Assembly: GCF_015207005.2 (NCBI RefSeq)
Contig: NZ_JADEXS020000001.1
Span: 7,959,001-8,023,000, forward strand
Direction of reading: 5' to 3'
Source: Desmonostoc muscorum LEGE 12446
Lineage (GTDB): Bacteria; Cyanobacteriota; Cyanobacteriia; Cyanobacteriales; Nostocaceae
Length of the DNA stretch: 64,000 bases
Positions 28,694 through 48,779 of this stretch are shown piece after piece. Positions within the stretch are counted from its first letter, which is position 1. Each line of letters begins with the position of its first letter. Position numbers and translations under genes: made by a program. The notes beneath the pieces were generated by a model. The model had not been told where the DNA came from. It saw only the letters and a list, made by a program, of their open reading frames with translations, and did not search any database.

Positions 28694-28797
28694 TCCGCAA
28701 ATTCCCCAATCCCCAATCCCCAATCCCTTTTGTCCCACCATTTGGTAAGTTAGTACATAGTCTGAAACAATAGCAGTTATCACAAGAGGGGATTACG

Positions 28798-29976
28798 TTG
28801 AGTCACCATCCAGATGCCATTGCACCGCACGGTGGACAGTTGGTTAACCGTATCGCCACACCAGAACAAAGAGAGGAATTTCTCTCAAAAGCTGATTTTT
28901 TGCCGCGAGTGCAACTTGACGATCGCGCCGTTTCTGATTTAGAAATGATAGCGATCGGTGGTTTTAGTCCACTCACGGGTTTTATGAACCAAGAAGACTA
29001 CGATCGCACTGTCACAGAAATGCGACTAGCTAATGGTTTTGTGTGGTCAATACCAATTACACTGTCGGTAGCCGAAGAAGTAGCTTCCCCTCTCAAAGAA
29101 GGCGGCTTGATTCGTCTAGATAACCCCGCAGGGCGGTTTATTGGAGTTTTGCAACTCACCCAAAAATATCACTACGACAAAACCCGCGAGGCAATTAATG
29201 TCTACCGCACTGATGATGCAAATCATCCTGGTGTGCAGGTACTCTATAACCAAGGTTCAGTACATCTGGCTGGTGATATCTGGCTATTGCAACGCGAATC
29301 CCATCCCCAGTTTCCCACTTACCAAATAGATCCAGCAGCTTCACGGCAAATCTTTCGTGAAAATGGCTGGAAAACCATTGTCGGTTTCCAAACTCGCAAC
29401 CCCATCCACCGCGCCCACGAATACATCCAAAAGTGCGCCTTAGAAACAGTAGATGCTCTATTTTTGCATCCATTGGTCGGGGCAACTAAAGATGATGATA
29501 TTGCCGCCGACGTGCGGATGCGCTGCTATGAAATTTTGCTGGAACATTACTACCCAAGCGATCGCGTGATTTTGGCAATTAATCCCGCCGCAATGCGTTA
29601 TGCTGGTCCTCGTGAAGCAATATTCCATGCTTTAGTCCGCAAAAACTACGGCTGTACTCACTTTATCGTGGGACGGGATCACGCAGGCGTTGGTGACTAT
29701 TATGGCACTTATGATGCTCAATACATCTTTGACGAATTTGAGCCAAGTGAATTAGGCATCGTGCCCATGAAATTTGAACACGCTTTCTACTGTACTCGTA
29801 CCAAGCAGATGGCGACGACTAAAACCAGTCCCAGCAAGCCAGAAGAACGCGTTCACCTATCGGGAACCAAAGTCAGGGAAATGCTGCGACGCGGTGAGTT
29901 ACCTCCACCAGAATTTTCCCGCCCGGAAGTAGCCGCAGAATTGGCGCGGGCAATGCGGATACAAGTGTCGGTTTAG
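28798..29976 (+). CDS. sat: Sulfate adenylyltransferase
   Basis: 392 residues, single-domain ATP sulfurylase. It makes adenosine 5'-phosphosulfate from ATP and sulfate, the first step of sulfate assimilation. Seen: the PUA-like N-terminus ([19 protein letters not shown]), the active-site [19 protein letters not shown] with the HxxH-type ATP motif, and [12 protein letters not shown]. The start is TTG at 28798, preceded by GAGGGG; the [12 protein letters not shown] start is the family norm. No cysD/cysN or APS kinase nearby. Confidence 0.95.
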
Positions 29977-29982
29977 GGCATT

Positions 29983-30105
29983 GGAAGGTGTGGGAGGTGT
30001 GGGAGGTGTGGGAGGCTAGGAAGCTTTTTTCTAATCTCCCCACACTCCCCCATCCTCCCACACTCCCCACACTCCCCACTCCCCACTCCCCACTCCCCCT
30101 TTACA
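29983..30105. repeat. Simple repeats after sat
   Basis: Tandem gtgtgggag units (29989-30016) followed by complementary ccccacact/ccccactcccc units (30043-30103); opposed blocks that could fold back and end transcription. Confidence 0.75.
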
Positions 30106-30162
30106 CTACAGGCCTCAAACCTTTAAGCTGCTAGCTGGTAGGCTGAGAACTGGTAGCTAATT

Positions 30163-32337: not shown

Positions 32338-32393
32338 CTAATGCCCTATTTTCATCAATCAGAATTAGGAAAATCCTGATACATATAGATAAC

Positions 32394-32421
32394 GTAGGGG
32401 CGCACAGCTGTGCGCCCCTAC
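32394..32421. repeat. 28-bp perfect palindrome
   Basis: Arms gtaggggcgcacag and its complement; the same palindrome is inside MITE copy B (27053-27080) and partly in copy A. It lies 57 bp after the caspase-like stop, between it and the convergent gcvP. Confidence 0.9.
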
Positions 32422-32523
32422 CGAGGTATCTGTATCAACTTTAAAGTGAAATGGTATTACGTATCGGCGATCGCCACAGTGATAGAGTTAGGAATTGAAA
32501 CTCCTAACTCTTCACTTAGTTAG

Positions 32524-35472
32524 TTAATAAGCGTCCATTGGCAGACAAGAACAAACAAAATTCCTATCCCCAAAAGCTGCATCAATGCGGCTAACAGCAG
32601 GCCAGAATTTATGTTCACGTGTCCAAGGTGCAGGGTAAGCAGCTTGTTCACGGGAATAGGGATGATGCCATTCCCCAGTGAGCAAACTTTCAGCAGTATG
32701 GGGTGCGTTCTTCAAAAGATTATCTTGGATATCTACTTTGCCTGATTCTATTTCGGCAATTTCTTGGCGAATAGCAATCAAGGCTTCGCAGAAACGATCT
32801 AACTCTTGTTTCGATTCGCTTTCTGTTGGTTCCACCATGATTGTACCAGCCACAGGCCAGGAAACAGTCGGCGCATGGAAACCATAATCCATCAAACGCT
32901 TAGCAACGTCATCGATTTCGATCGCTGCGGATTTTTTGAGCGATCGTAAATCTAAAATACATTCATGGGCAACTAAACCATTTTTCCCTTGATATAAAAC
33001 GGGATAGTAAGATTCAAGTTTCTTGGCGATGTAGTTAGCGTTGAGAATTGCCACTTTGGTTGCTTGGGTTAAACCAGCTGTACCCATCATCGCAATGTAC
33101 ATCCAAGAAATCACCAAAATACTCGCACTACCCCAAGGCGCAGCCGCCACAGCACCGAGATGCTGGTTACTGGGTATTTCTTCCTTCCCAGTCCCCAGTC
33201 CCCAGTCCCCAGTCCCTACCACAGCATGTCCAGGTAGGAACGGCACAAGATGAGAAGCAACACCAATAGGCCCCATACCAGGACCACCGCCACCGTGGGG
33301 AATACAGAAAGTTTTGTGCAAGTTTAAGTGACACACATCCGCGCCAATATCCCCAGGACGACAAATTCCTACTTGGGCATTCATATTTGCCCCATCCATG
33401 TAAACTTGTCCACCGTGGGCATGAACAACTGCACAGATTTCCTTAATTGACTCTTCAAAAACACCGTGAGTCGAGGGATATGTCACCATTAAGGCGGCGA
33501 GTTCATGACCGTGTTTTTCTGCCTTAGCCTTCAGGTCATCAACGTCAATGTTACCTTGTGAATCACAAGCAACTCCCACTACCTTCATGCCGCACATTAC
33601 CGCACTTGCTGGGTTTGTCCCATGTGCTGAGGTGGGAATCAAACAGACATTGCGGTATCCTTCTTGCCGATTTTCGTGATACTGGCGAATTACTAAAAGT
33701 CCGGCGTATTCACCTTGAGAACCCGCGTTTGGTTGCAGAGAAATTCCCGCAAAACCAGTAATTTCAGCTAACCATGCCTCAAGTTGCTCAAACAGGATTT
33801 GATAACCCTGGGTTTGGGATGGCGGGGCAAAAGGATGAATCTTGCCAAATTCGTCCCAAGTTACCGGAATCATCTCAGCAGTCGCATTCAACTTCATTGT
33901 GCAAGAACCCAAGGGAATCATCGATGTTGTTAGCGACAAGTCCTTGCTTTCTAGCTTGTGGAGATAGCGCAATAACTCTGTTTCTGAGTGATAGCGGTTA
34001 AAGACTGTGTGAGTTAGGTAACTGCTTTGACGAGGGAAGGGGAGATGGCCAGATGAGGGAGATGAGGGAGAAATCCATTCTTCCAAGCCCAAAGGTAGTT
34101 CTTTTTCTCCTGCGAAGATTCCCAAGATGTCAAGCACATCATCTACTGTGGTAGTTTCATTCAACGAAATACCAACAGCAGTTGCATCAAAAATCCGCAA
34201 GTTAATTTGAAGTTGTTCGGAAGCTGCCAGAATATCTTCTAGATTGTGTGTTCCCAGTTCTACTCGCAGGGTATCAAAGAAATATTCAGAACTAATTTTG
34301 TAACCCAAACGCTTGAGTCCTTCTGCCAGCAACACCGTTAGGGAGTGGATATTTTCGGCAATTTGCTTGAGTCCAGCAGGGCCATGATAAACGGCGTACA
34401 TACTCGCTATCACTGCCAGTAGCACCTGTGCTGTGCAGATATTACTGGTAGCTTTTTCTCGGCGAATATGTTGTTCGCGGGTTTGTAAGGCGAGACGTAA
34501 TGCAGGGTTGCCACGAGCATCTTTTGATACTCCCACAATTCGCCCTGGAACCGATCGCTTATACTCTTCTTTGGTAGCGAAGTATGCCGCATGAGGTCCC
34601 CCAAACCCCAAGGGAATACCGAAGCGTTGGGTGCTACCCACAGCAATGTCAGCGCCAAATTCCCCAGGAGGGGTGAGTAAAGTTAAACTTAAGGGATCTG
34701 CTGCTACCGTCACCAATGCACCCTGAGCATGGGCTTTTTCAATAAAAGCGCGGTAATCGTAAACGGTGCCGTCACTCGCGGGATATTGCAGAAGGGCGCC
34801 AAAAATTGGTTCCTGGAAATCAAATGTTTGATGATCGCCAATAATGATATTAATCCCCAATGGCTGAGCGCGAGTCTGCAACACATCAATGGTTTGGGGA
34901 TGGCAATCACGAGAGACGAAATAGCCATTTGCGTGATTTTTAGAAACACCATAGCTGAGGCTCATGGCTTCTGCGGCGGCTGTGGCTTCATCCAATAATG
35001 AAGCATTGGCAATTTCCAAACCTGTGAGGTCGATAATCAGGGTTTGGAAATTCAACAGTGCTTCCAATCGTCCTTGGGCGATTTCTGGCTGATAAGGAGT
35101 GTAAGCAGTATACCAACCAGGGTTTTCTAGGATATTACGTCCAATGACTGGAGGGGTAATACTCTCGTAATATCCCATACCAATATATGAGCGGAAAACC
35201 TGATTTTTGCCAGCAACTTTTTTTAATAATGCCAGTGCTGCATATTCACTTTCTGCTTCTGGTAACTTGAGCGGTTCCTTGAGCCGAATTGCCTGGGGTA
35301 CTGTTTGGTCGATGAGGGCATCTAAACTAGAAAACCCCAAGACTCCAAGCATTTGCTCGATGTCATCGGAGTTGGGACCAATGTGTCTTGGCGCAAAACT
35401 ACTTAACTTTTGACTCGTTTCGTCTACGAAATGGCGATCGCTAGACTTCAGAATAGGGAGATTTGATACCAC
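32524..35472 (-). CDS. gcvP: Glycine dehydrogenase (decarboxylating), P protein
   Basis: 982 residues. P protein of the glycine cleavage system; it decarboxylates glycine on pyridoxal phosphate and passes the aminomethyl group to lipoyl-GcvH. Seen: N-terminal [40 protein letters not shown], and the PLP lysine in [20 protein letters not shown]. The protein is somewhat longer than usual because two simple-repeat stretches are inserted in frame: [13 protein letters not shown] (33186-33216) and [12 protein letters not shown] (34034-34071). Last gene of the operon gcvT-gcvH-gcvP, with repeats in the spacer before it. In cyanobacteria the system serves photorespiratory glycine and C1 metabolism. 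Confidence 0.96.
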
Positions 35473-35574
35473 AAATTACTCTCCAGATGATACTATTTAA
35501 TATTTTGCAACAAATACTGATAAGAAGTGAGTGTAATTTATCAATTTATCTAAATTTGATGACTTAATCTTTCT

Positions 35575-35745
35575 GGGGAGTAGGGAGTGGGGAGTAGGGA
35601 GTGGGGAGTGGGGGAGATGAGGGGTATTAGGGAAATGGGGGTGTGGGGAGATTATAAAAAAGTTCCCCACCCTTCCTACACTCCCAGTTCCCAGTCCCCA
35701 TTCCCCATTCCCCCATCCCCCCATTCCCCACTCCCTACTCCCCTT
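35575..35745. repeat. Simple repeats between gcvH and gcvP
   Basis: Block of ggggagtagggagtgggg (35575-35612) and a complementary block cccattccccactccc (35695-35745), able to form a long imperfect hairpin in the gcvH-gcvP spacer. Confidence 0.75.
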
Positions 35746-36121
35746 CTACCAAGGCACGGTATTGATCGGCAGTCAAGGCATCATTTAGTTCATCGGCGTC
35801 GTTGACACGCACTTTTAAAAACCATCCTTCACCGTAAGGGTCATCTGTCACTAGTTCGGGGCCGTCAATCACAGCATCATTGCGTTCTACCACTGTGCCA
35901 GTCATAGGTGAATTCAGTGTTTCAACGGCTTTCACTGATTCAATAGTGCCAAAACTGTCTTCTTTTGTCAGTAAATCACCAATTTCTGGCAGTTCCACAA
36001 ATACGATATCACCCAATTGGTTTACGGCATACTCAGTAACACCAATGGTGGCAATATCGCCATCTAGTCGCACGTATTCATGAGAATCCAGGTATCTTAA
36101 ATCTTCAGGATATTCAGCCAT
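35735..36121 (-). CDS. gcvH: Glycine cleavage system H protein
   Basis: 128 residues, normal length. Lipoyl carrier that shuttles the aminomethyl group from P to T protein. The lipoylated lysine is K64 in [16 protein letters not shown]. The ending [20 protein letters not shown] is typical. Lipoate would be supplied by lipoyl synthase (lipA at 46796). Lies between gcvT (181 bp upstream) and gcvP. Confidence 0.96.
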
Positions 36122-36302
36122 ATCACTTCCTCTCCCTTATCAAACAATTTATTGTCCCAATGGTCATCGAACCCATATCTGGTAATGAACCTGACTGTAG
36201 ATTGAGTAACTCACAAAAGCGGTGTTGAGCAATGACTGAAATTCAGTACTCGCAACTGGACACCACTGAAAACACATTATTCCTTAAAAACCTCAGCACT
36301 TA

Positions 36303-37439
36303 TCAGTTAGTTACACGATTTTTTGAGCGATAGAAGGGACGTTTAACTACAACTGCTGGGTAAGCTTTGCCGCGAATATCAACTTCTAATTGCTGACCAA
36401 CGGCTGCTAGCTTGGTGGGAACGTAGGCTAAAGCAATGGGATAACCAAGTGTGAGCGACAAAGTACCGCTGGTAACTTCTCCCAGAACTTTACCTGCTGA
36501 TAGAATTTGGTAGCCATGACGAGCAATGTTGCGTCCTTGGGTTTGCAAACCTACCAAGCGCCGCTGCACTCCCTCGGCTTTTTGCTGTTCCAAAACCGCC
36601 CTACCAATAAAATCGCCTTTGGTATCTAGGTGAACTAGCCAGCCCAAACCTGCTTCTAAGGGTGTGGTACTGTCATCGATGTCTTGTCCGTAAAGTGCCA
36701 TTGCTGCTTCTAGCCGCAGGGTATCTCTCGCACCGAGTCCACAAGGGATGACACCAGCGTTATGGAGACTTTGCCATAACTCTACTGCCACATCAGGATC
36801 TACCATCACCTCAAAGCCATCTTCTCCCGTGTAGCCTGTGCGGGCTATGAAGGCTGGTTTACCCAATACCGTTGCTTGGAGGTGACCGAATGCTTTGATT
36901 GCTTGTAAATCTTCTTGTACTAAAGGTTGGAGATATTTAATAGCTTTTGGCCCTTGCACGGCTATTAAGGCTTTTTCTGGTGAAAGGTCTTGGAATTGCA
37001 CCTGATTTTGATCGAGGTGTTGCAATAGCCATGCTTTGTCTTTGGCAGTGGTTGCTGCATTGACTATAATAAATACCCTCTGTTTACCAGTGGTATCTTC
37101 ACCTTGATGATAAACAATGATGTCGTCAATAATTCCCCCTTGGGGATTTAACAAGACGGTGTATTGTGCTTGACCAGGTTGCAACCGACTCAAGTCTGAG
37201 GGTACTAAAGACTGGAGTTGGGATATGAGGTTTTTCCCTTGGAGGGTAAATTTACCCATGTGGGAAATATCGAACATTCCGGCTGTATTTCTTACAGCTT
37301 CGTGTTCGCGGGTAATGCCACTAAATTGTACCGGCATTTCCCAACCACCAAAGCTGGTAAAGCGTGCTTTGAGTTCTACACCCAATTGATATAAAGCAGT
37401 TCGCGCCAAGGATTGGGCGTTGTCTTCTTGATTAGCCAC
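36303..37439 (-). CDS. gcvT: Aminomethyltransferase (glycine cleavage T protein)
   Basis: 378 residues. Transfers the methylene from aminomethyl-lipoyl-GcvH to tetrahydrofolate, releasing ammonia. Seen: MPVQFSGITREHEAVRNTAG and MFDISHMGKF at the start, IARTGYTGEDGFEVMV, LGARDTLRLEAAMALYGQD and a C-terminal GEVTSGTLSLTLGYPIALAY. First gene of the gcv operon. I saw no glycine riboswitch upstream; the region 37440-37600 contains only a palindromic repeat. Confidence 0.96.
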   Translation of the reverse strand: MANQEDNAQSLARTALYQLGVELKARFTSFGGWEMPVQFSGITREHEAVRNTAGMFDISHMGKFTLQGKNLISQLQSLVPSDLSRLQPGQAQYTVLLNPQGGIIDDIIVYHQGEDTTGKQRVFIIVNAATTAKDKAWLLQHLDQNQVQFQDLSPEKALIAVQGPKAIKYLQPLVQEDLQAIKAFGHLQATVLGKPAFIARTGYTGEDGFEVMVDPDVAVELWQSLHNAGVIPCGLGARDTLRLEAAMALYGQDIDDSTTPLEAGLGWLVHLDTKGDFIGRAVLEQQKAEGVQRRLVGLQTQGRNIARHGYQILSAGKVLGEVTSGTLSLTLGYPIALAYVPTKLAAVGQQLEVDIRGKAYPAVVVKRPFYRSKNRVTN

Positions 37440-37517
37440 AGGTATTTATGCGATCGCACCTCAACATCTATCTATCCTACGAGATGCTTTCCCCTTTGAG
37501 AGAATATCCTAACTCTT

Positions 37518-37545
37518 GTAGAGACGCGATTAATCGCGTCTCTAC
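37518..37545. repeat. 28-bp palindrome (gagacgcgattaatcgcgtctc family)
   Basis: Perfect palindrome with arms gtagagacgcgatt. Other members in the window: 15751-15782, 31763-31787 and 31797-31822 (inside a gene), 47731-47757, 59378-59399 and 60619-60683. Confidence 0.9.
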
Positions 37546-37614
37546 CTCACTCAACACTCTCTACAAGGTTTAATAGTTAATGGTGGAAATGTTGAGATTT
37601 GTTAATTTAACATT

Positions 37615-38109
37615 ATGAAGTATCGGCAAATACTAGCTAGCTTTGTTTTAGCTATAGCTCTTTTTGTTTTTCCCCTCTCGGCGCAGGCTGCAAGTTCTTC
37701 CAGTATTACCCGTTCTGCTGGAGACAACCTTCAAAGCAGGGATTACTCTGGTCAAAGTTTAATAGGGACTGAGTTTACCAACGTCGATTTAGAAAATGCT
37801 AACTTTAGCAATGCTGACTTACGCGGCGTTGTATTTAATGGTACTGTCTTAGAGGGAGTAAATCTGCATGGTGCAGATTTTACTAATGGCATAGCCTATC
37901 TGGCAAGATTTAAGAACGCTGATTTAAGTGATGCAGTCTTGAGTGAGGCAATGATGCTGCGTTCTATATTTGACAATGTTGATATTACTGGTGCTGATTT
38001 CACAAATGCAGTTTTAGATGGAACGCAAGTCAAAAAACTCTGCGTTAAGGCAAGTGGTGTCAATTCTAAAACTGGTGTGGATACCCGTGAGTCTTTAGGA
38101 TGTAAGTAG
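37615..38109 (+). CDS. Pentapeptide-repeat protein, probably thylakoid-lumenal or periplasmic
   Basis: 164 residues. Signal peptide residues 1-26 ([20 protein letters not shown]) with a clear AxA cleavage site. Residues about 50-135 are pentapeptide repeats of the A(D/N)LxX type ([47 protein letters not shown]), folding as a right-handed quadrilateral beta-helix. Two cysteines (KKLC, ESLGC) near the C-terminus could form a disulfide, which is consistent with export. Similar lumenal proteins exist in cyanobacteria and chloroplasts; function unclear. Divergent from gcvT. Confidence 0.88.
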
Positions 38110-38539
38110 AACTTTACCATACTCAGTGCTGTACATGGATAGCGGGGCGTTTAGCCCGTGCTGAGTGCTGAGTAAGAAAAAGAATACTCAGTACTTTTGC
38201 ACTCGGGTTTTTGCCCCGCCCCTTGTGGAGCCACTTGCTCATGGGGTTTCCCCCATGAGCAAGTGGCGTGGCGGAATCTTTTTGTCTTGAGTTGTTTGAT
38301 ACCCCGATGCCACTTGCTTTATGCCGGGAAACCCGTCCACCGTAGTGGCTCCCCCTTGTGGGCGGTTTTTCACGCTCTTTGCCGAGGCACTCGGAACTCA
38401 GCACTTTATAGTAGTATAAATGTACTCAATCAGTTCAATCGACAGATGAAAGATATAATTCTACAACAAATTGATTTCCAACAGTCAACAGCCAAAATTT
38501 CAGTACATTAATGGTGTTTAATTGTAGCGATCTGCCTAG
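38110..38539. other. Intergenic region with palindromic repeat block
   Basis: Contains several inverted repeats, the clearest at 38231-38266 (16-bp arms ccacttgctcatgggg). Both strands have open frames through it, but codons simply follow the palindromes and no homology is visible. I call no gene here. Confidence 0.6.
38231..38266. repeat. Inverted repeat, 16-bp arms
   Basis: Arms ccacttgctcatgggg and its complement around a 4-base loop (tttc). Part of a larger palindromic block 38150-38400 that is probably a dispersed element. Confidence 0.85.
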
Positions 38540-40894
38540 TTAAGCTACTATGTCCTGTGAATACAAATACTGCTGAAACCCGATAAATACTTCACTGATA
38601 TTCGCAACGCTCCCTAGTTCTTCAACAGCATCACGAACAGTATGATATTTCAACTCTAACAGTTGGGGTAATTTAGTGCGATCGAGTTCCCCCACCCCAG
38701 CTTTGATGTATTGTTCGAGTATAAAGTCGAGAAATTCTTGCTGTTTGCCGATATAGCGCGAGAAAATTAATGATTTGTGAGCGAGGACACGCTCTCGGCG
38801 GCTTATAGGTGGTGAGGCATAGGCGATATAAGCCAGCACATCATATAAATCGCTTTTCTGGGCATCAATCAGGCGACTAATTTCTGTGAGTTGTTCTTCC
38901 CCGTAGCCCTTCTCTGCCAGTCCTTCTAATAAAGCTCTACGGGTGTCAGGGCGACTCCAGATTGCTCTTAATTCGTCTTCATCTGTGAATAGTTCAGGAA
39001 TTTCACCAAAGAGACGTTGCACAAATTCTGCGGCGCTCATAGGTCTACCGTCCGGACTCCAGAAGCTGGTGGATATTCGGTGCTGGAGAGTTCGTTCTTT
39101 ACCATCAGCGAGTTTGATTTTGATGGTTTTGGGGTTGGGAACTTCTGCAATTTCGTTTCTATTTTTGCCTCTATTTATACCACTATCTGTTGTAGAGTCG
39201 TTGTATGCGCCTGATTGCTCTCCCCCTCTGGCAATTTTGACGAGAACAGGTTCCTGGGGTTCACCATCCCATTCAGGATCGTTGAAGTGTTCGTAGGCTT
39301 TGACGAAATCATAAATAGTGAAGTAGTCTTTCCCTTCAAATAGGCGAGTACCGCGACCGATTATTTGCTTAAATTCAATCATTGAGTTGATGGGACGCAT
39401 CAACACAATGTTACGAACATTCCGAGCATCAACCCCAGTGGATAGTTTGTGGGAAGTTGTGAGAATGGTAGGAATATTCTTCTCATTGTCTTGAAAGTTG
39501 CTGAGGTGTTGTTCGCCTAGTTTCCCATCATCTGCGGTGACGCGGACACAGTAATTAGGGTTACTGCTAATCTTCATTTGGTTGATTAAATCTCGCACAG
39601 CTAAAGCGTGGGGTTGGTTGGCGCAAAACACCAGAGTTTTTTGATTTTGGTCGATTTCTTCCATGAACAGCTGCACCCGGTAGCGTTCACGATCGGCAAT
39701 TTCAATGATGCGGTTGAAGTCGTCTTCAGTGTAGGTTCTGGCTTCGTCTACTGCACCTTCGATCAGTTCATCTTCGGTGCTGTAAATATATTCATCTAGG
39801 TTAGTTTCGATTTGCCTGACTTTAAAGGGAGTAAGAAACCCGTCGTTGATGCCGTCTTTGAGGGCGTAGGTATAGACTGGCTCACCAAAGTAGGCGTAGG
39901 TGTCTGCATTATATTTTCGTTTAGGAGTGGCGGTGAGTCCCAGTTGTACTGCTGGGGAGAAGTATTCTAAAATGCCCCGCCAGGTGCTTTCGTCACTGGC
40001 TCCGCCTCGGTGACATTCATCAATGATGATGAAGTCAAAGAAGTCGGGGGGATAGTCGCTGAATTTGGGCGTAGGATTGCCAGCCTCGTCCCGTCCGGTC
40101 ATAAAAGTCTGGAAAATCGTAAAAAAGATACTGCCATTTTTGGGGACTCGACCCCGTTTTTTGATGGCTTCGGGGTCGATGCGGACGAGGGCATCGTCGG
40201 GGAAGGCAGAGAATGAGTTATAGGCTTGGTTGGCTAAGATATTGCGATCGCTTAAAAACAAAATTCGCGGACGACGGGTAGGTTTTCTGCTAAGATTCCA
40301 ACGGCTTTGAAAGAGTTTCCAGGCGAGTTGGAAGGCGATGAAGGTTTTACCTGTGCCTGTTGCCATTGTTAACAAAATCCGGTTTTTTCCTTGGCAGATT
40401 GCTTCTAGAACGTGTTTAATGGCATTGTGTTGATAATAACGGGCTTCCCATGTGCCACTTTTGTCTTCAAAGGGGATGGCAGCAAAGCGATCGCGCCACT
40501 CATTATTTTCGCTAAAGGTCGCTTCCCACAGTTGATCCGGGGTGGGATATTGGTTGATGTAGCCTTCTGCCCCTGTGTGCATATCTACTTGGTAGATGCC
40601 GATGCCATTTGTGGAGTAGGCGAATCGAGTCTGCAACTTTTCGGCGTATTTTTTGGCTTGCCCTAAACCTTCTGTATCTCGTAAGTCGCGTTTTTTCGCT
40701 TCGATGACGGCGAGTTTTTCACCACGATAAACCAGGACATAATCGGCGATGTCTGATTGAGCGCGTTTACCATTGCCAACTAAGCGACCAGGGGCAATAA
40801 CTTCGCGGCGGATGCGACTATCTTCAATAACTCCCCAGCCTGCGGTTTTGAGTGCGGGGTCAATTAGTTCGGCACGGGTTTCGGCTTCGTTCAT
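38540..40894 (-). CDS. hsdR: Type I restriction endonuclease subunit R
   Basis: I place the start at ATG 40894 (MNEAETRAELIDPALKTAGW), giving about 784 residues; the open frame extends to 41050, but the extra codons are not family-like. N-terminal nuclease domain with YRGEKLAVIEAKKRDLRD (core E and K), then SF2 translocase motifs: Walker A TMATGTGKTFIAFQ (about residue 175), FIIIDECHRGGASDES (DEAH-like) and QIIGRGTRLFEG (motif VI). The size suits the EcoAI-like subgroup. Works with HsdM and HsdS to translocate and cut unmethylated DNA. hsdMS lie on the same strand 2 kb upstream, separated by an oppositely oriented two-gene cassette. Confidence 0.93.
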   Translation of the reverse strand: MNEAETRAELIDPALKTAGWGVIEDSRIRREVIAPGRLVGNGKRAQSDIADYVLVYRGEKLAVIEAKKRDLRDTEGLGQAKKYAEKLQTRFAYSTNGIGIYQVDMHTGAEGYINQYPTPDQLWEATFSENNEWRDRFAAIPFEDKSGTWEARYYQHNAIKHVLEAICQGKNRILLTMATGTGKTFIAFQLAWKLFQSRWNLSRKPTRRPRILFLSDRNILANQAYNSFSAFPDDALVRIDPEAIKKRGRVPKNGSIFFTIFQTFMTGRDEAGNPTPKFSDYPPDFFDFIIIDECHRGGASDESTWRGILEYFSPAVQLGLTATPKRKYNADTYAYFGEPVYTYALKDGINDGFLTPFKVRQIETNLDEYIYSTEDELIEGAVDEARTYTEDDFNRIIEIADRERYRVQLFMEEIDQNQKTLVFCANQPHALAVRDLINQMKISSNPNYCVRVTADDGKLGEQHLSNFQDNEKNIPTILTTSHKLSTGVDARNVRNIVLMRPINSMIEFKQIIGRGTRLFEGKDYFTIYDFVKAYEHFNDPEWDGEPQEPVLVKIARGGEQSGAYNDSTTDSGINRGKNRNEIAEVPNPKTIKIKLADGKERTLQHRISTSFWSPDGRPMSAAEFVQRLFGEIPELFTDEDELRAIWSRPDTRRALLEGLAEKGYGEEQLTEISRLIDAQKSDLYDVLAYIAYASPPISRRERVLAHKSLIFSRYIGKQQEFLDFILEQYIKAGVGELDRTKLPQLLELKYHTVRDAVEELGSVANISEVFIGFQQYLYSQDIVA

Positions 40895-40907
40895 ATTTCG
40901 CTCATCT

Positions 40908-40996
40908 CGATTTGCGATAAAACACTTTTTTTGCTTGTTCTGCAAGGGTTTGAGGATTTGAGGGCTACTAAGATCGATTTGCGATAAAACACTTTT
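40908..40996. promoter_or_regulatory. Pair of 22-bp direct repeats upstream of hsdR
   Basis: The same 22 bp (cgatttgcgataaaacac plus tttt) occur at 40908-40929 and 40975-40996, spaced by 67 bp, just before the chosen hsdR start. They could be operator sites in the divergent spacer between hsdR and the cassette, or the trace of a local duplication. Confidence 0.4.
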
Positions 40997-41319
40997 ATGC
41001 CCAAAAAGGGAGATAGCCAGCATAACGGGTAGAGCTTGATTCAGATTCATCTGTCTTGATCAAGCCAGCTTCTTTAGTTGCTCCTATGATGTGGGAAACG
41101 GTTTCTACATATCCCGTAGCGTTTGGTTAGACAATTCGTTGATTTTTGACATACAACAGGCAAAAACGCTGGTAGCAGCTATGATGTCAGCAAAATGTGA
41201 AAGCCCAGAAATTTTACAGATTTTGTTTAGCATTTGTAGTAAATTAATGCTAGTAGTCTAGTAACTAAGTTATTAAGTATACAATTGAATTTGTTTTTAT
41301 ATCCAAAAAGCAAAGGGTA
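40997..41319. other. Divergent spacer between hsdR and the cassette
   Basis: AT-rich, no gene seen. It must hold promoters for hsdR (minus) and for the cassette gene at 41320 (plus). I could not place them. Confidence 0.5.
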
Positions 41320-41733
41320 ATGTATTCAAAACACTTCCCCGATGACTGTCCTCCATCGCAATCTGATATTGCATCGGGAGAGTTTTACAGGTTTATTAAC
41401 AAGGCTCATGAAACACCCCAACCACAAGATTTCTTATCTTGGCGACAAGAAAATCCAAATAAGGAATGTCCTGCGAGTATATCTGAATGTCAAGTCTGTG
41501 GTTTATCAATTCATTCATCATTGGATGATGCAAAAAATCTATCTCTGAGAATTCCGCGTTTTAAGAAGATGAAAATAGCTAAGGGTAGTTTGAGCGAGGA
41601 ACTAGGAAGAATACAACATACTCCGTCAAGGAATGAAAAATCACATCATACTTGGTGGATACCAGAGAATACAGAACCTTATAAGGTGTTTGAGATAATT
41701 GATTTAAAACAACAAGATTCTAATAAAATATAA
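41320..41733 (+). CDS. Hypothetical protein, first gene of cassette in R-M locus
   Basis: 137 residues, family not named by me. Features: N-terminal MYSKHFPDDCPPSQSDIASG, a central ECQVCGLSIHSSLDDAKNL (CxxC, which might bind metal with other Cys/His residues), a basic patch (RFKKMKIAKG) and a C-terminal SHHTWWIPENTEPYKVFEI. Nine bp before the next gene, so both form an operon. Direction is opposite to the hsd genes. Low GC and AT-rich codons compared with the core genes suggest transfer. Role unknown; its location argues for defence. Confidence 0.7.
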   Translation: MYSKHFPDDCPPSQSDIASGEFYRFINKAHETPQPQDFLSWRQENPNKECPASISECQVCGLSIHSSLDDAKNLSLRIPRFKKMKIAKGSLSEELGRIQHTPSRNEKSHHTWWIPENTEPYKVFEIIDLKQQDSNKI

Positions 41734-41742
41734 GTTATAAAC

Positions 41743-42948
41743 ATGAGTTTTTTGCCGGAACGAACAATACTAGGACAGCTTGAAATTATAGAAGTCTACG
41801 ACTTTTATGATAAGCCAGTGTTGTTTTCCTGTAAAAATAAATCGGGATTAATTTTTATTGTAATTTGTGTAGATAGTTCTGATGTTGCTGAGATATGGTT
41901 ATATGCTCCCATGTCTTCATCTAGATTTCAAAACCTAGCTCAGGGTAAATTTGAGCTTAGAGATATATTTAATAATACAGAAGATGGTTTTGTATATCAT
42001 GTAGAAATCCCTTATGAAGAAGGGATGAATGTTGTTGTAAAAACTGTTAATTGCAATGAAATTCCAGATGAATATTTGCCAGGATTAGGGCAAGTTATTC
42101 AGGCTGAAGATAATTGCAATCATACTAATATTGAAACGGTTTCTATTCAAAAAAGAAGAGAAATAATTAATTTTGTTTTACAGTTTCCAGAGGAAGAGAT
42201 TACAGAAGCTCCTGTGGGTGATTTAGGGTTAATTTTATCTTCATTACAAGAAACAATTGATGCTATCGGTCAAATCAAGCTAGGTAAATCAGAAAGCCAC
42301 ATAATACAACCAGAAGTAAAGCAAAAGACTCAAGTTGTTATGTCTGGTGTATTTAGTGGCTCATTTGGAATGCGCCTGGAAGGAACTGTATATGCAGAAG
42401 ATAGTTTAGGTTTAGGAGAGTCTTTCTTAGGGCAATGCTTAAAAGAATTTATACAGTTAATAAATCTTGGGGCAAATACAGAGGAATTGCCAGCTAAATT
42501 AAATGTATTAAAAAAGAAAACAGCTTTTAAATATACTGAGTTTTTAACAGCTTTAACTAGAATTGGAATAAGTAAATTACACATAGATTGGGCTTCTCCT
42601 GGTCAAAAGGTACAAATGGGAGAAATAGAACAAGAAACTGTATTTAAAGTTCTTGATGTTATCAAGAATACTAAGTTAAGAGCAGAAACAGAAATTTGTG
42701 TAAATGTAAAATTGACTCAGATTAGTTACAGTAGTAAAACATTAACTTTACAAGAAGTCGGTTCTAAGAAAAAATACAAATGCTTGATAGCAGATTCGGC
42801 TATGAAAGATGTAGAAACTATTAGCAGAAATAGAGTTTATGTAGCCACTATTCAAGAGTATGTTATTGTATCTACTGTTCTGAATAAGGAAAAGCACGAA
42901 TATGAATTATTAAGTTTAAAGTTAGAAGCAGAATCAGAAAATATATAA
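41743..42948 (+). CDS. DUF6575-like protein, second gene of cassette
   Basis: 401 residues. The N-terminal ~120 residues (ILGQLEIIEVYDFYDKPVLF, SCKNKSGLIFIVICVD, EIWLYAPMSSSRFQNLAQGK) match my recollection of DUF6575. The middle (IQKRREIINFVLQFPEEEIT onwards) is mixed alpha/beta, and the C-terminal region (LTLQEVGSKKKYKCLIADSA) looks like a small beta-barrel. No nuclease, ATPase or methylase motif is visible. AT-rich like the previous gene. It ends 37 bp from the stop of hsdS (convergent). Probably an accessory or independent defence component; this is inference from position. Confidence 0.65.
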   Translation: MSFLPERTILGQLEIIEVYDFYDKPVLFSCKNKSGLIFIVICVDSSDVAEIWLYAPMSSSRFQNLAQGKFELRDIFNNTEDGFVYHVEIPYEEGMNVVVKTVNCNEIPDEYLPGLGQVIQAEDNCNHTNIETVSIQKRREIINFVLQFPEEEITEAPVGDLGLILSSLQETIDAIGQIKLGKSESHIIQPEVKQKTQVVMSGVFSGSFGMRLEGTVYAEDSLGLGESFLGQCLKEFIQLINLGANTEELPAKLNVLKKKTAFKYTEFLTALTRIGISKLHIDWASPGQKVQMGEIEQETVFKVLDVIKNTKLRAETEICVNVKLTQISYSSKTLTLQEVGSKKKYKCLIADSAMKDVETISRNRVYVATIQEYVIVSTVLNKEKHEYELLSLKLEAESENI

Positions 42949-42984
42949 ACTTGAGATCGTTGCTTTATTGCGTTAAATAATCTT

Positions 42985-44280
42985 TCATGCTGCAATTTCC
43001 TCTTTAGCAGTTTTAGGGGTGTCTGCGGTGAGTTCGCCAGTGAAGGCTTTTTGCAGGATCGATTGTTTGAGTTCATTGAGTGCAGTGATTTTTTGTGTGT
43101 AAATCGCTTCGAGACGTTGACTTTCAGTGGCTATCTCGTTAATGTTTGCAACAATAGCTTTTTGCTCTGAAAATTTAGGAAAACTAATTGTGATTGATGA
43201 AAGCCCCTGTTGGTTAAGACTACTAATGCTAATTCCGCCACCACTTTCTATTAGCTGTTTTCGGATATGCCTAGATTTTAGAGAGTAGACTATAAACTGG
43301 GGATAAATATTCTCACTTTCTATGCGAATTCTAATTGTGAAGCCAGAGTGTGAGGTTTTTTGAGATAGATCACCTGCTAGTACACAACGCCCTATTAATT
43401 CTTTATTGCCATTGGAACGAACAGTTAATATATCTCCTTTGCGAAGGATATCTATTTCCTTTAACTCTGCATCTATGGTCACGGAATCTAATTGATCTTC
43501 CTGAATCCAAAAATAGTTTTGAAAATCTTTAACGCCGACAATCTTGATTGACTCACCTTTACTACTTTTTGTGAAGTTTAGACCATTTCTAAAAGTTGCT
43601 ATATCTCCTAACTTTTTCTCTGTCCACCCTTTGCCTTTCTTGGTAAAGATGGCGTTTAGATAGCTTTCAAATAGTTCGCTGGCATTGGTGAGGTTTTTTT
43701 CGGTGTTTGCGATCGCTCTATCAATCCCCTCAAACGCCTCATTCAGATTATCTGCTATAGCTTTTTGCTCAACTATAGTTGGAGGGAATCGAATTGATAT
43801 AGCACCTAATTTATTTGGAGATGTATGTCGAACTTTAACTCCTGAAGCACTACTTTGAACTGCTGCTCTAAATTCTTGAGTGTTGAACAGATGAAAGAAA
43901 AAATCGTTATGCCAGTCAATTCCATCAAAAACTTGTACAAGTCCAAGACGTTGATTGTGTAGAAATCTGTTTGACTCAGGAACAATTAGAGGGCTGCCAA
44001 GAAGTCCAGGAGCTTGTTCTGTCATGGCGAAAAGGAAATCACCTTTCTTGAGAATAAAACCATTAGGAATTTTGCCAATATAATATTTTGTCTTTTCACC
44101 TTGCTCACGATATCCACCACTCTCATAGAAGGAGCCTGGTGTGAGTAATACATAATCAGATTCTTCAGAAGTAAAAAATTGGCTCTTAAAAGCAAACCCA
44201 TGCTTTATCAAGCAAATCTCTCCTAATTTCTTTTCAATCCATCCTTTTGGTAATGTTTTACTATTCATTCTCAACGACAT
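42985..44280 (-). CDS. hsdS: Type I restriction specificity subunit S
   Basis: 431 residues with the two-repeat HsdS design. First target-recognition domain begins LPKGWIEKKLGEICLIKHGF; a coiled-coil conserved region follows (EQKAIADNLNEAFEGIDRAI); the second domain starts GKGWTEKKLGDIATFRNGLN and ends with EQKAIVANINEIATESQRLE plus a coiled coil. It determines the bipartite DNA site for both methylation and cleavage. Its start overlaps the end of hsdM by 10 bp, so the two are co-translated. The recognised sequence cannot be predicted. Confidence 0.93.
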   Translation of the reverse strand: MSLRMNSKTLPKGWIEKKLGEICLIKHGFAFKSQFFTSEESDYVLLTPGSFYESGGYREQGEKTKYYIGKIPNGFILKKGDFLFAMTEQAPGLLGSPLIVPESNRFLHNQRLGLVQVFDGIDWHNDFFFHLFNTQEFRAAVQSSASGVKVRHTSPNKLGAISIRFPPTIVEQKAIADNLNEAFEGIDRAIANTEKNLTNASELFESYLNAIFTKKGKGWTEKKLGDIATFRNGLNFTKSSKGESIKIVGVKDFQNYFWIQEDQLDSVTIDAELKEIDILRKGDILTVRSNGNKELIGRCVLAGDLSQKTSHSGFTIRIRIESENIYPQFIVYSLKSRHIRKQLIESGGGISISSLNQQGLSSITISFPKFSEQKAIVANINEIATESQRLEAIYTQKITALNELKQSILQKAFTGELTADTPKTAKEEIAA

Positions 44281-45791
44281 ACCATTTCCCCAATTCCAGC
44301 CAAAATTTCTGCACTCTCCGCATCTAAAGCCGCAATTTCATCCAAAATTTCCTGCGGTTCTCGTAACTTCGATTCCTCAGTCTTATTCGGATTCTTCACC
44401 GACAAATCAAACGTCACCCGATCCACATCAGCAATATCCACCAGCCAAGACTTTTCCGACTCTGCAAAGGTAGCCTGAAACTCCACAAACTCGCGCAAAT
44501 CCTCATCATTCAGCGCATTTGTTTTCCCCAAACTACGCCCCGGATCGAGTTGGTAATACCAAATTTTCTGAGTAGCCATCCCCTGAGTTAAAGGTTTTCC
44601 CTGAGAAAATAAAGGCATTCCCTGAACGGAGTCGAAGGGCTTTCCTTTCTCAAAAAACAGCACCACTGTTTTCACCCCCGCACCGATAAAAGTCCCACTC
44701 GGACAATCTAAAATGGTGTGCAAATTGCAACTACTCAAAAGCTCTTGACGCAATGCCCGCGAAGCATTGTCCGAATTTGACAGGAATGTATTTTTGATTA
44801 CTACCGCAGCCCTACCGCCTATCTTCAGCATTTTGATGAAATGCTGCAAAAACAGAAACGCTGTTTCCCCAGTTTTAATCGGGAAATTCTGCTGTACTTC
44901 CTTGCGTTCCTTCCCCCCAAATGGCGGATTAGCCAAGATGACATCAAAACGATTCTTGTCTTGAATATCACTGAGATTTTCCGTCAGCGTGTTGGTGTGG
45001 ATAATATTCGGCGCATCAATGCCATGCAAAATCATATTCATGATGGCAATCACATACGCCAAACTTTTCTTTTCTTTACCCGTAAACGTATGTTTTTGAA
45101 GAATCTCAAGCTCTTTTGTTGTCAGCTTACCCCGACGTAAATAGTCGTAACTCTCGCACAAAAACCCAGCCGAACCACAAGCCCCATCATAAATGCGATC
45201 GCCAATCTTCGGCTTCACCACCTGAATCATTGCCCGAATCAACGGACGCGGCGTGTAATATTCCCCACCATTACGCCCTGCATTACCCATATTTTTGATT
45301 TTGGCTTCATAGAGATGCGATAGCTCGTGTTTCTCCTGTTGCGATCGAAACCGTAGCTCATCAATATATTCCAGCGCATCCCGTAAGCTGTAGCCGCTTT
45401 GAAACCTATTCTTAATCTCGCTAAAAATTTCCCCAATCTTGTATTCGATTGTATCTGGACTAGTAGCCCGTTGCTTAAAACTCTGTAAATATGGGAATAA
45501 CTTGCGGTTGACATAATCAATCAGATCATCGCCAATCAGCGCATTATCATGATCCAATGTACCATCCGCTTTTTTCGGTGCTGCCCAAGATGACCAGCGA
45601 TGCGCCTCATCAATAATAAATTCGTATGGCTTGCCAGCCAGTTCCGCCTCTAGCGCCCTTTCCTGCTCCAAATCATCCAAATACTTCAGAAACAGCAGCC
45701 AAGAGGTTTGCTCCGTGTAATCTAACTCTGTAGTACAACCCGCCTCTTTCCAGAGAACATCATCAATATTTTTAAAAGTTTGCTCAAACAT
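44271..45791 (-). CDS. hsdM: Type I restriction DNA methyltransferase subunit M
   Basis: 506 residues. N-terminal HsdM helical domain (FEQTFKNIDDVLWKEAGCTT), SAM-binding motif I YDGACGSAGFL (about residue 200) and the N6-adenine catalytic motif ILANPPFGG (about residue 283). With HsdS it modifies host DNA; with HsdR it restricts foreign DNA. Residues about 383-402 (GKPFDSVQGMPLFSQGKPL) are not family-like: they come from the dispersed repeat ccctgaacggagtcgaaggg (44620-44639) inserted in frame. The gene starts 35 bp from the cas12k remnant. Confidence 0.93.
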   Translation of the reverse strand: MFEQTFKNIDDVLWKEAGCTTELDYTEQTSWLLFLKYLDDLEQERALEAELAGKPYEFIIDEAHRWSSWAAPKKADGTLDHDNALIGDDLIDYVNRKLFPYLQSFKQRATSPDTIEYKIGEIFSEIKNRFQSGYSLRDALEYIDELRFRSQQEKHELSHLYEAKIKNMGNAGRNGGEYYTPRPLIRAMIQVVKPKIGDRIYDGACGSAGFLCESYDYLRRGKLTTKELEILQKHTFTGKEKKSLAYVIAIMNMILHGIDAPNIIHTNTLTENLSDIQDKNRFDVILANPPFGGKERKEVQQNFPIKTGETAFLFLQHFIKMLKIGGRAAVVIKNTFLSNSDNASRALRQELLSSCNLHTILDCPSGTFIGAGVKTVVLFFEKGKPFDSVQGMPLFSQGKPLTQGMATQKIWYYQLDPGRSLGKTNALNDEDLREFVEFQATFAESEKSWLVDIADVDRVTFDLSVKNPNKTEESKLREPQEILDEIAALDAESAEILAGIGEMVCR

Positions 45792-45825
45792 TTAGCCTTA
45801 CTGTGGGATTTTTAATATTAATAGC

Positions 45826-46388
45826 TTGGCTCAGATTTTGCACCTACAAGGTGAAATGAGCGTGCGATTAGTTAAGAATAAGGAACAAAAAGAGGATCTT
45901 ACTGAGAAACAGCTATGTCGTCTACAAGGTGAGCGAACTAAGAGGGAAGCACTTAACCAAACCTTTCCTAATTATCCTAGTAAACCTCTGTATCAAGGTA
46001 AATCTAGTATTATCGTTGGTGTTAGTTTTGGACTAGATAAAGCAGCCACAGTAGCTGTGGTAGATGCTGCCAAAAAGAAAGTTTTAGCATATCCTAGCAC
46101 TAAACAACTACTTGGTAAAAATTACAAGCTTCTCAATCGCCAGCGGAAAAAACAACAACGCCTATCTCACGAAGATCACAAAGCTCAGAAACGAAATGCA
46201 CCCAATGATTTTGGTGAATTACATTTAGGTGATATGTCGATAGATTATTGGCTGATGCAATTATTGCGATCGCCAAAACCTATCAAGCAGGCAGCATAGT
46301 TATCCCAAAACTCCGCTATATACGTGAGCAAATCAGTAGTGAAATCCAATCCAGAGCAGAGTTGAAAGCAAATTTTTGTTGTTACTAG
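45826..46388 (+). pseudogene. cas12k: cas12k fragment (type V-K CAST effector), frameshifted
   Basis: The sequence reads PSKPLYQGKSSIIVGVSFGL, TVAVVDAAKKKVLAYPST, KQLLGKNYKLLNRQRKKQQR and LSHEDHKAQKRNAPNDFGE, which I recognise as the RuvC-like middle of Cas12k. Near 46232 one base is missing; in the next frame homology continues as YVDRLLADAIIAIAKTYQAG, SIVIPKLRYIREQISSEIQ and stops at TAG 46386-46388. The N-terminal two thirds and the extreme C-terminus are absent, so the gene is dead. The open frame before the shift would end at 46299. No tnsB, tnsC, tniQ or tracrRNA region is seen. Confidence 0.85.
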
Positions 46389-46408
46389 GTGAAATATTTG
46401 TTTGAATT

Positions 46409-46445
46409 AGGAGGGTTGAAAGCCGCACTTCGTTCGGGAGACTGC
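46409..46445 (+). ncRNA. Delocalised CAST crRNA unit: repeat end plus tRNA-matching spacer
   Basis: The string aggagggttgaaag (46409-46422) ends like V-K CRISPR repeats (gggttgaaag). The next bases, ccgcacttcgttcggga (46423-46439), match the tRNA-Pro gene at 16 of 17 positions, mismatch at position 1. In the tRNA gene the matching site follows GGTA (46641-46638 on the minus strand), a valid GTN-type PAM for V-K systems. This is the organisation of a homing crRNA that directs a CAST to a tRNA gene. Transcription is not shown and the tracrRNA is missing. Confidence 0.75.
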
Positions 46446-46508
46446 CGACACTGTGCATAGTCAGATCAATGCGACTTCAATTAGGAAAATCATCTCTAGA
46501 AAAATTAT

Positions 46509-46583
46509 GACAAATAATTTGTCGTTTTAGACTTTTTGACAAATAATGTGTCGTCACAGACAAATAATTTGTCGCTCTACACA
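46509..46583. mobile_element. Transposon end of a type V-K CAST with three TnsB-like sites
   Basis: Three copies of a 16-bp element: gacaaataatttgtcg at 46509-46524 and 46559-46574, and gacaaataatgtgtcg at 46538-46553. Read from the tRNA, the end starts TGTAGAGCGACAAATTATTT, resembling V-K CAST ends (TGTACA...GACAAATTA...TGTC). The terminal TGT lies at 46581 or 46583, 3-5 bp from the tRNA 3' end and about 54-56 bp from the PAM, the distance expected for Cas12k-directed insertion. Only this end is recognisable in the window. Confidence 0.75.
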
Positions 46584-46585
46584 AA

Positions 46586-46659
46586 TCGGGATGACTGGAT
46601 TCGAACCAGCGGCCCCTTCGTCCCGAACGAAGTGCGCTACCAAGCTGCGCCACATCCCG
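46586..46659 (-). tRNA. tRNA-Pro (CGG)
   Basis: 74 nt cloverleaf: acceptor CGGGATG/CATCCCG with discriminator A, D-arm GCGC/GCGC, anticodon stem CTTCG/CGAAG enclosing the loop TTCGGGA (anticodon CGG), and T-arm with TTCGAAT. CCA is not encoded. The V-K CAST end directly abuts its 3' side and the homing spacer matches its anticodon-arm region. Confidence 0.95.
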
Positions 46660-46795
46660 CCATAAAAACGGCACTATAAAACCAAAATATCACAACCCGT
46701 GGCAAATGACAAAATTACATCTATATATAATCAATTCACCAAAGGCTTTGCTTGCTAACATTAAATTTGTATAACTTTAGTGGTCAAAGCGGATT

Positions 46796-47674
46796 GTGAC
46801 TGTAAAACCAGACTGGTTGCGGGTGAAAGCACCTGGGCGTGAGCGCATCGGTAACGTTAAAGACATTTTGCGGGATTTAGCTCTCAATACAGTTTGCGAG
46901 GAAGCGTCCTGTCCGAATATTGGTGAATGCTTCAACGCTGGTACTGCCACGTTTTTGATTATGGGACCGGCTTGTACACGCGCTTGTCCCTACTGCGATA
47001 TTGATTTTGAGAAAAAACCCAAACCATTAGACCCCACCGAACCTGCACGACTAGCGGAAGCTGTTCGCCGCATGAAACTTAATCATGTGGTAATCACTTC
47101 TGTAAACCGAGATGATTTGCCAGATGGTGGCGCATCTCAATTTGTGGGGTGTATTGATGCAGTTCGTAACGTCTCACCCAACACCACAATTGAAGTGCTA
47201 ATTCCTGACTTGTGCGGTAATTGGAATGCTTTAGAGTTGATTCTCCAAGCTGCACCAGAGGTGTTAAACCATAACACGGAAACCATCCCCCGTTTGTATC
47301 GCCGGGTGCGTCCCCAAGGAAATTACGATCGCACATTAGAATTATTGCAGCGAACTCGCCAACTTTCTCCTAGCACCTACACTAAATCCGGTATCATGGT
47401 TGGACTCGGTGAAACTGACGCCGAAATCCGTCAAGTCATGCAAGACTTGCGATCTGTAGATTGCGACATTTTAACAATTGGGCAATACCTCCAACCCAGT
47501 CAAAAACACCTGAAAGTAAATGATTTTATCCACCCAGAACAATTTGCTGCTTGGAAGGCATTCGGCGAAGAAATAGGATTTTTACAAGTTGTTTCTTCAC
47601 CATTGACAAGAAGCTCATATCATGCAGAACAAGTCAGGGAATTAATGGAACGTAATCCCCGCAGTCAATTTTAG
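46796..47674 (+). CDS. lipA: Lipoyl synthase
   Basis: 292 residues. Radical-SAM enzyme that inserts two sulfurs into octanoyl groups to make lipoyl cofactors, for example on GcvH. Both iron-sulfur clusters are visible: auxiliary cluster [12 protein letters not shown] (C34, C39, C45) and radical-SAM cluster CTRACPYC (C60, C64, C67). The start is GTG at 46796. Family ending [13 protein letters not shown] (with the serine ligand of the auxiliary cluster). The length is in the normal range. Confidence 0.96.
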
Positions 47675-47825
47675 ATTTTAGATTTTAGATTTTAGATTGG
47701 TGAGTGAAGAGATGGAGAAATGGGGAGTTTGTAGAGACGCGATTCATCGCGTCTGTATGGGAATGGGGAGTGTGAAAGAAAAATTTTTATCTTTCCTTGT
47801 GGGCGCAACTCATGGAGTCTCTTGA

Positions 47826-48779
47826 GTGATGACTAATCCAAAATCCGAAATCCAAAATCCAAAATCCGTTGCCATTCTGGGTGCGGGTGCTTGGGGTACG
47901 GCGCTGGCAAATCTAGCAGCGGCCAATGGCCATGAGGTGCGTGTCTGGTCGCGTCACGGTTCCCAAACTCTCGAAGCAGTAGTCAAAGATGTCCACATAA
48001 TCCTGTCAGCTATCTCCATGACAGGTGTCAGGGATGTTGCTTCTCAAGTCCACTCTTTCCCTCTTTCTCCAGAGACAATTTTTGTCACAGCAACCAAAGG
48101 CTTAGACCCCCAAACCACCTGTACGCCGTCGCAAATTTGGCAAACAATATTCCCTAACCATGCAGTAGTTGTTCTGTCAGGGCCGAATTTATCTAAAGAA
48201 ATTCAAATGCAATTACCAGCAGCAACTGTGGTAGCCAGTAATATCCCCACGGCTGCTGAGCTAGTGCAGTTAGTATTTTCCTCACATCGTTTCCGGGTAT
48301 ATACCAATTCAGATCCCCTTGGTGTGGAACTAGGGGGAACTTTGAAAAATGTGATTGCGATCGCCGCTGGTGTGTGCGATGGTTTACAACTAGGAACCAA
48401 TGCCAAAGCTGCTTTAGTCACCCGTGGACTTACAGAAATAATTCGCGTCGGTAACAACTGGGGCGCAAAGACGGGAACATTTTATGGTTTATCGGGTCTA
48501 GGAGATCTGTTAGCAACCTGCAACAGTCCCTTAAGTCGCAATTACCAAGTCGGCTATCAGCTAGCTGGTGGTAAGACACTTACAGAAATTCTCACAAATT
48601 TACAAGGAACCGCTGAGGGAGTTAACACTTGTCGGGTTTTGATACAACGAGCCAAGCAACAAAACATTGCTGTGCCAATTACCGAGCAAGTTTATCACCT
48701 ACTTCAGGGTCAAATCACACCCCGACAAGCACTTGATGAACTAATGTTACGAGATATCAAGCCTGAGTATAACTACTAG
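47826..48779 (+). CDS. gpsA: Glycerol-3-phosphate dehydrogenase [NAD(P)+]
   Basis: 317 residues. Makes sn-glycerol-3-phosphate for lipid synthesis. Rossmann motif AILGAGAWGTALANLAA; catalytic lysine in LGGTLKNVIAIAAG; substrate block YGLSGLGDLLATCNSPLSRN. The first 13 residues (MTNPKSEIQNPKS) are encoded by the dispersed repeat aaatccaaaatcc; an ATG inside the repeat serves as the start, and translation may begin at either 47826 or 47829. No other in-frame start precedes the Rossmann strand. Confidence 0.94.
   Translation: MMTNPKSEIQNPKSVAILGAGAWGTALANLAAANGHEVRVWSRHGSQTLEAVVKDVHIILSAISMTGVRDVASQVHSFPLSPETIFVTATKGLDPQTTCTPSQIWQTIFPNHAVVVLSGPNLSKEIQMQLPAATVVASNIPTAAELVQLVFSSHRFRVYTNSDPLGVELGGTLKNVIAIAAGVCDGLQLGTNAKAALVTRGLTEIIRVGNNWGAKTGTFYGLSGLGDLLATCNSPLSRNYQVGYQLAGGKTLTEILTNLQGTAEGVNTCRVLIQRAKQQNIAVPITEQVYHLLQGQITPRQALDELMLRDIKPEYNY

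Follow-up and report, generated by a model that had tools for sequence, protein, structure and literature searches.

The window, by which we mean the whole stretch of 64,000 nt analysed here, contains a tRNA-Pro gene flanked by the end of a CRISPR repeat and a short copy of the gene's own sequence. This raises the question of whether a type V-K CAST was guided by RNA to this gene and kept the guide, as proposed in the initial annotation. The delocalised crRNA of type V-K CASTs is said to go back to Saito et al. 2021. Homing of V-K elements to tRNA genes via separate guides is described in PMC11406308 and PMC11656645. In PMC9938897, such anchors comprise a truncated repeat (R*) of ~12 nt, a spacer usually of 17 nt, a GTN PAM and a tRNA gene directed toward the transposon, with a PAM-to-left-end distance of 46–82 nt in all cases but one; that paper also mentions twelve degenerated Cas12k proteins.

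An anchor guide matching tRNA-Pro

The guide and its target were located by sequence as follows, R* being defined as in PMC9938897.

46410..46422, + strand: truncated CRISPR repeat R* (GGAGGGTTGAAAG)
46415..46422, + strand: 3' end of R*, GTTGAAAG
46423..46439, + strand: 17-nt anchor spacer CCGCACTTCGTTCGGGA, matching tRNA-Pro at 16/17 positions
46586..46659, − strand: tRNA-Pro (CGG), the attachment gene, directed toward the transposon
46621..46637, − strand: protospacer of the anchor, within the tRNA-Pro anticodon arm, by sequence match
46638..46640, − strand: PAM GTA (GTN)

The truncated repeat stands near the left end of the element and outside the array, and its spacer matches a site just outside that end, in a tRNA gene as is usual for anchors. 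The 16-nt match, the GTN PAM and the mismatch at the first spacer base had all been claimed beforehand and were found as described, the sole mismatch being a C in the spacer against a G in the tRNA. The recommended shuffling check was also performed. Exact matches to the tRNA reached no more than 11 nt, both in 2000 dinucleotide shuffles of 46300–46581 and among 2987 random 30-mers from the window, compared to the 16 nt observed. A plasmid search with 46300–46600 as the query returned zero matches.

The left end and its distance from the PAM

46509..46581, − strand: CAST left end with three GACAAATNATNTGTC repeats (46509–46523, 46538–46552 and 46559–46573), each an exact match on at least one strand

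Reading the left end as TGTAGAGC puts its outermost base at 46581, and reading it as TGTGTAG puts that base at 46583. The PAM-to-end distance is accordingly 56 or 54 nt, in agreement with the annotated 54–56 bp and inside the published range. This left end is of the GACAAATAATTTGTC type, which is shared by elements in two other genomes (G024, L118; G043, L116). It carries the TnsB-type repeats of a functional CAST, which we take to be bound by TnsB. With up to two mismatches the end-repeat pattern occurs seven times in the window, a count reached by 6 of 100 shuffles. The repeat count alone is therefore no proof, and the distinctive part is the three exact places within 65 nt at the end.

A scan of the window with this one consensus gave no second cluster of end repeats, and no right end was found. 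Since no 5-bp target-site duplication was established either, the left end alone indicates the insertion spot. The sequence TGTACA near 38130 was considered as a right end and rejected by eye, because some of the flanking sequence is repeated at other places in the genome, the end-repeat cluster is missing after it and the preceding 5 nt differ from the 5 nt outside the left end.

Remains of cas12k and adjoining genes

45832..46361, + strand: cas12k relic with a middle part of the gene matching ShCas12k residues ~399–526 (E 2.5e-36), then a frameshift near 46233 and further codons to 46361
46362..46368, + strand: TTGAAAG, the 3'-most 7 nt of the terminal CRISPR repeat, joined directly to cas12k
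46369..46409, + strand: stretch between the last CRISPR repeat and R*
38540..45791, − strand: type I restriction-modification set (hsdR 38540–41050, hsdS 42985–44280, hsdM 44271–45791)
41320..42948, + strand: two frames between hsdR and hsdS

The cas12k relic is cut at both sides, leaving no complete Cas12k, and had zero matches in Pfam. At the upstream joint, the region upstream of hsdM, which is close to a Mojavia contig, passes into cas12k between ~45832 and ~45882. At the 3' joint (46361/46362), the window reads as cas12k through GCAGAG and then continues as TTGAAAGCAAATTTTTGTTG, whereas G085 has a full last repeat followed by CAAATTTTTGTTG, and two other loci (L033 and L035) continue as cas12k across the same point. 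Because cas12k runs directly into the end of the last repeat, the tracrRNA and CRISPR array appear from this comparison to have been deleted at 46361/46362, which fits the annotated absence of a tracrRNA. Deletion through an 8-nt microhomology, GTTGAAAG, between cas12k and the repeat was ruled out; L033 and L035 read GAGAAGAAATG at that point, and so the joint shares ~1 nt.

The hsdR, hsdS and hsdM frames are uninterrupted and fill most of 38540–45791, adjoining the dead CAST end; they are probable CAST cargo. Positions 44278–45877 (hsdM) are 94% identical to a Mojavia pulchra contig. The same contig also carries a V-K element whose guide has another target (L038). On the left, the gcvT and pentapeptide-repeat genes lie in DNA that is conserved in relatives. 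This DNA stops near 38118 and did not turn up in the sequence next to tRNA-Pro from 20 relatives, which may place the remnant at a rearrangement breakpoint near that position. On the right, the order of tRNA-Pro, lipoyl synthase (lipA) and glycerol-3-phosphate dehydrogenase is kept in 19/20 genus members (all except L075). Leftward, similarity to those members stops at the edge of the transposon, or a little further in when they have a similar end.

The same guide in relatives

The R* end plus spacer, with the first base free and at most one mismatch elsewhere, was searched for in 387 genomes, the host included. Matches were found at 48 sites in 45 genomes (47 sites in 44/386 without the host), compared to none in the 387 genomes for a reversed-pattern control. 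The R* core in relatives is GGTTGAAAG, present with the spacer at the 47 other sites (at most one mismatch). The first spacer base is the tRNA-matching G at 47/47 of these sites, and the C is private to the window copy. Since 0/47 other sites have it, the C looks like decay and not design, and decay is probably how it arose.

Gene content was counted at those 41 of the 47 sites for which 7 kb or more of upstream sequence was available (L097, L107, L121, L129, L130 and L133 were dropped). By tblastn (E 1e-5), stop-to-stop Cas12k frames of at least 641 aa are present at 19 of them and fragments at 5, and at 17 none was detected; orphan anchors without detectable cas12k are common (17/41). TnsC and TnsB matches persist at two cas12k-less anchor sites (L092 and L131). 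This guide is also present at this tRNA in relatives whose Cas12k is full-length, in answer to the call for a search of intact relatives. Three of their tRNA-Pro CASTs (G010, G039 and G269) are like the window in the R* core GGTTGAAAG, the target, the PAM and every spacer base except the first. Unlike the window, they have full-length Cas12k and TniQ and TnsC matches; TnsB is complete in the G269 piece and partial in that of G039, and the G010 piece ends before it.

Over the 45 sites that have an exact adjacent target, including the window (54 nt by this measure), the PAM and the first TGT are 52–64 nt apart. Four rows without such a target were left out of this count, namely the G375 and G242 sites (one counted twice), where a stacked neighbour separates the anchor from the tRNA, and G084, where the tRNA differs at 2 positions. 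Anchors mismatched to an adjacent target occur in 6/45 genomes (G000, G196, G188, G069, G006 and G084). Such anchors were found in 3/6 genomes without a TniQ match versus 3/39 with one (Fisher p = 0.024, relatedness uncorrected), in a comparison where the guide search admitted one mismatch only, the tRNA itself differs in G084 of the TniQ-positive group, some TniQ matches are fragments (e.g. G021, G071 and G268), and G195, among the six TniQ-negative genomes, is listed as 38% contaminated. In the case of L088 (G017) and L055 (G085), a TGTACATTCGC terminus was seen by eye to abut a cut CRISPR repeat on the far side of the array, as though the repeat had received the end by joining or by insertion.

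Origin of the guide and of the left end

The guide and the left end that it adjoins need not have the same history. Stacked CASTs carrying the same anchor at tRNA-Pro could have recombined within the R*-anchor sequence with deletion of the intervening DNA, which would leave the cas12k and anchor of one element beside the left end of another. We consider such a mosaic a serious possibility, at somewhat less than even odds. Positions 46361–46439 (79 nt) share 97% identity with G085, where the element has a TTCGCAAATT-type left end, and this similarity ends at the spacer end; 46445–46482 (38 nt) are 92% identical to the G242 element (L126), whose sequence before the anchor differs from that of the window. 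Stacked elements with the same anchor do occur in G242 (L126) and G375 (L135 and L093), and there the old left end soon meets the end repeats of the neighbour and a tnsB-like frame (33% identity for the L126 TnsB match). However, this is one decayed case, similarity over so short a range can mislead, and a lineage with such a combination may be unsampled.

From these similarities, recombination within the anchor may reasonably be inferred. Because the sequences before and after the anchor resemble different lineages, both of which carry the same spacer, the present spacer may not be the one that placed the present left end. The original claim that the element landed here by RNA-guided homing and kept the guide is supported, with the correction that the guide and the present left end may stem from two elements. 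A broader proposal is suggested by the stacking of elements from different lineages at one tRNA with the same ~30-nt sequence: the repeat-anchor could act as a recombination joint that swaps CAST ends and clears the machinery, with orphan anchors persisting and losing their fit after the machinery has gone, in line with the contrast in mismatched anchors between genomes without and with a TniQ match. We regard this as unlikely, and no account of anchor recombination was found in the literature searched, most subscription papers being outside its reach.

Transposition machinery in the host

Besides a left end, a functional CAST would have a complete Cas12k, a tracrRNA with its array, and tnsB, tnsC and tniQ. 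None of these last three genes had a match in positions 27916–47915 of the window. TniQ gave 0 matches in the whole host assembly, and the same search was positive in 39/45 anchor genomes. The TniQ query is fallible, since it misses G195, whose two anchors have full-length Cas12k together with TnsB and TnsC matches; because it can miss a V-K TniQ, the absence of machinery in the host is judged from TniQ, TnsC and TnsB jointly. The best host matches to TnsB and TnsC (tblastn) lie elsewhere in the genome, cover part of the query and are 26% and 33% identical. Beside V-K anchors, TnsB matches are 33–100% and TnsC matches 29–100% identical, most being above the host values. By this measure the host matches probably belong to other transposons. 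Pfam supports all three queries (TniQ, TniB and Mu-transpos_C); in NCBIfam, the TniQ and TnsC queries matched no family, and the TnsB query matched only transposase families, below their cut-offs.

A second V-K relic is present in the host at a tRNA-Cys gene (G000:C1 near 6,208,500; L002/L136). It is like the window in having a degenerate cas12k and a retained anchor, and differs in that the anchor matches at 17/17 positions and that a tracrRNA-like region, seemingly whole, and scraps of an array remain (by eye). The perfect 17-nt anchor and tracrRNA region of this relic, together with the partial TnsB-like and TnsC-like matches, could be taken to mean that the guide in the window still serves in trans for another CAST in the cell. 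This is very improbable, as the tRNA-Cys cas12k has three stops and was the only other match with the window relic as query, there is no TniQ, and the TnsB-like and TnsC-like identities are low.

Mobile elements often duplicate the ends of tRNA genes, and the 16-nt match might on that ground have nothing to do with CRISPR and be a repeat derived from a tRNA or an att duplication made by an integrase. The chance of this is close to nil: the copy is inverted, internal to the gene (anticodon arm), placed after a CRISPR repeat end beside cas12k remains and repeated as the same guide at the sites of relatives, and because the spacer and the tRNA hold the only two copies of the 16-mer in the 9.6-Mb, 12-contig host assembly, a dispersed tRNA-derived repeat, named at the outset as what would overturn the homing proposal, is excluded there.

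A decayed V-K CAST at tRNA-Pro

The reading that best accounts for the locus is that a V-K CAST homed by an anchor crRNA to tRNA-Pro and then decayed to its present remains, to which we assign a probability of about 0.94. Spacer, PAM, distance and orientation support RNA-guided homing with the guide kept, as originally proposed; counted against it are the missing right end, the lack of a target-site duplication and the one spacer mismatch. By a mechanism that is established for the family and that we infer for the window element, a crRNA consisting of the truncated repeat and 17-nt spacer, complementary to the anticodon arm of tRNA-Pro, would act with Cas12k, tracrRNA, TniQ, TnsC and TnsB to direct insertion ~56 nt past the GTN PAM. 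The insertion would fall downstream of the tRNA gene and leave the gene undamaged. Later deletions would then have taken the tracrRNA, the array and the greater part of cas12k, the right end and the transposition genes would have been lost as well, and the spacer would have gained its mismatch while the restriction-modification cargo survived. The order of these events is our reconstruction, drawn from remains that are directly observed, as is the missing clear V-K TniQ, TnsC and TnsB in the host.

The element is very probably dead, because its cas12k is a frameshifted fragment, its tracrRNA and array are deleted and the searches of the host yielded no clear V-K TniQ, TnsC or TnsB. The guide is most likely now a fossil. 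The window and the published V-K anchors are alike in the truncated repeat, the 17-nt spacer, the GTN PAM, the orientation of the tRNA and the range of distance; the window differs in the mismatch at spacer base 1, the degenerate cas12k and the deleted tracrRNA and array, and, as compared to a published V-K CAST, in that the right end and transposition genes were not found in it. The arrangement is thus already published, and the window copy is a decayed example of it.

What the locus offers is a fossil of RNA-guided homing, in which spacer, PAM and distance are still legible after decay, although searches of the host genome gave no clear V-K machinery. The 48 sites with one common guide are a ready set on which to test how guides of V-K elements are retained, shared or lost, but the principle has already been published.
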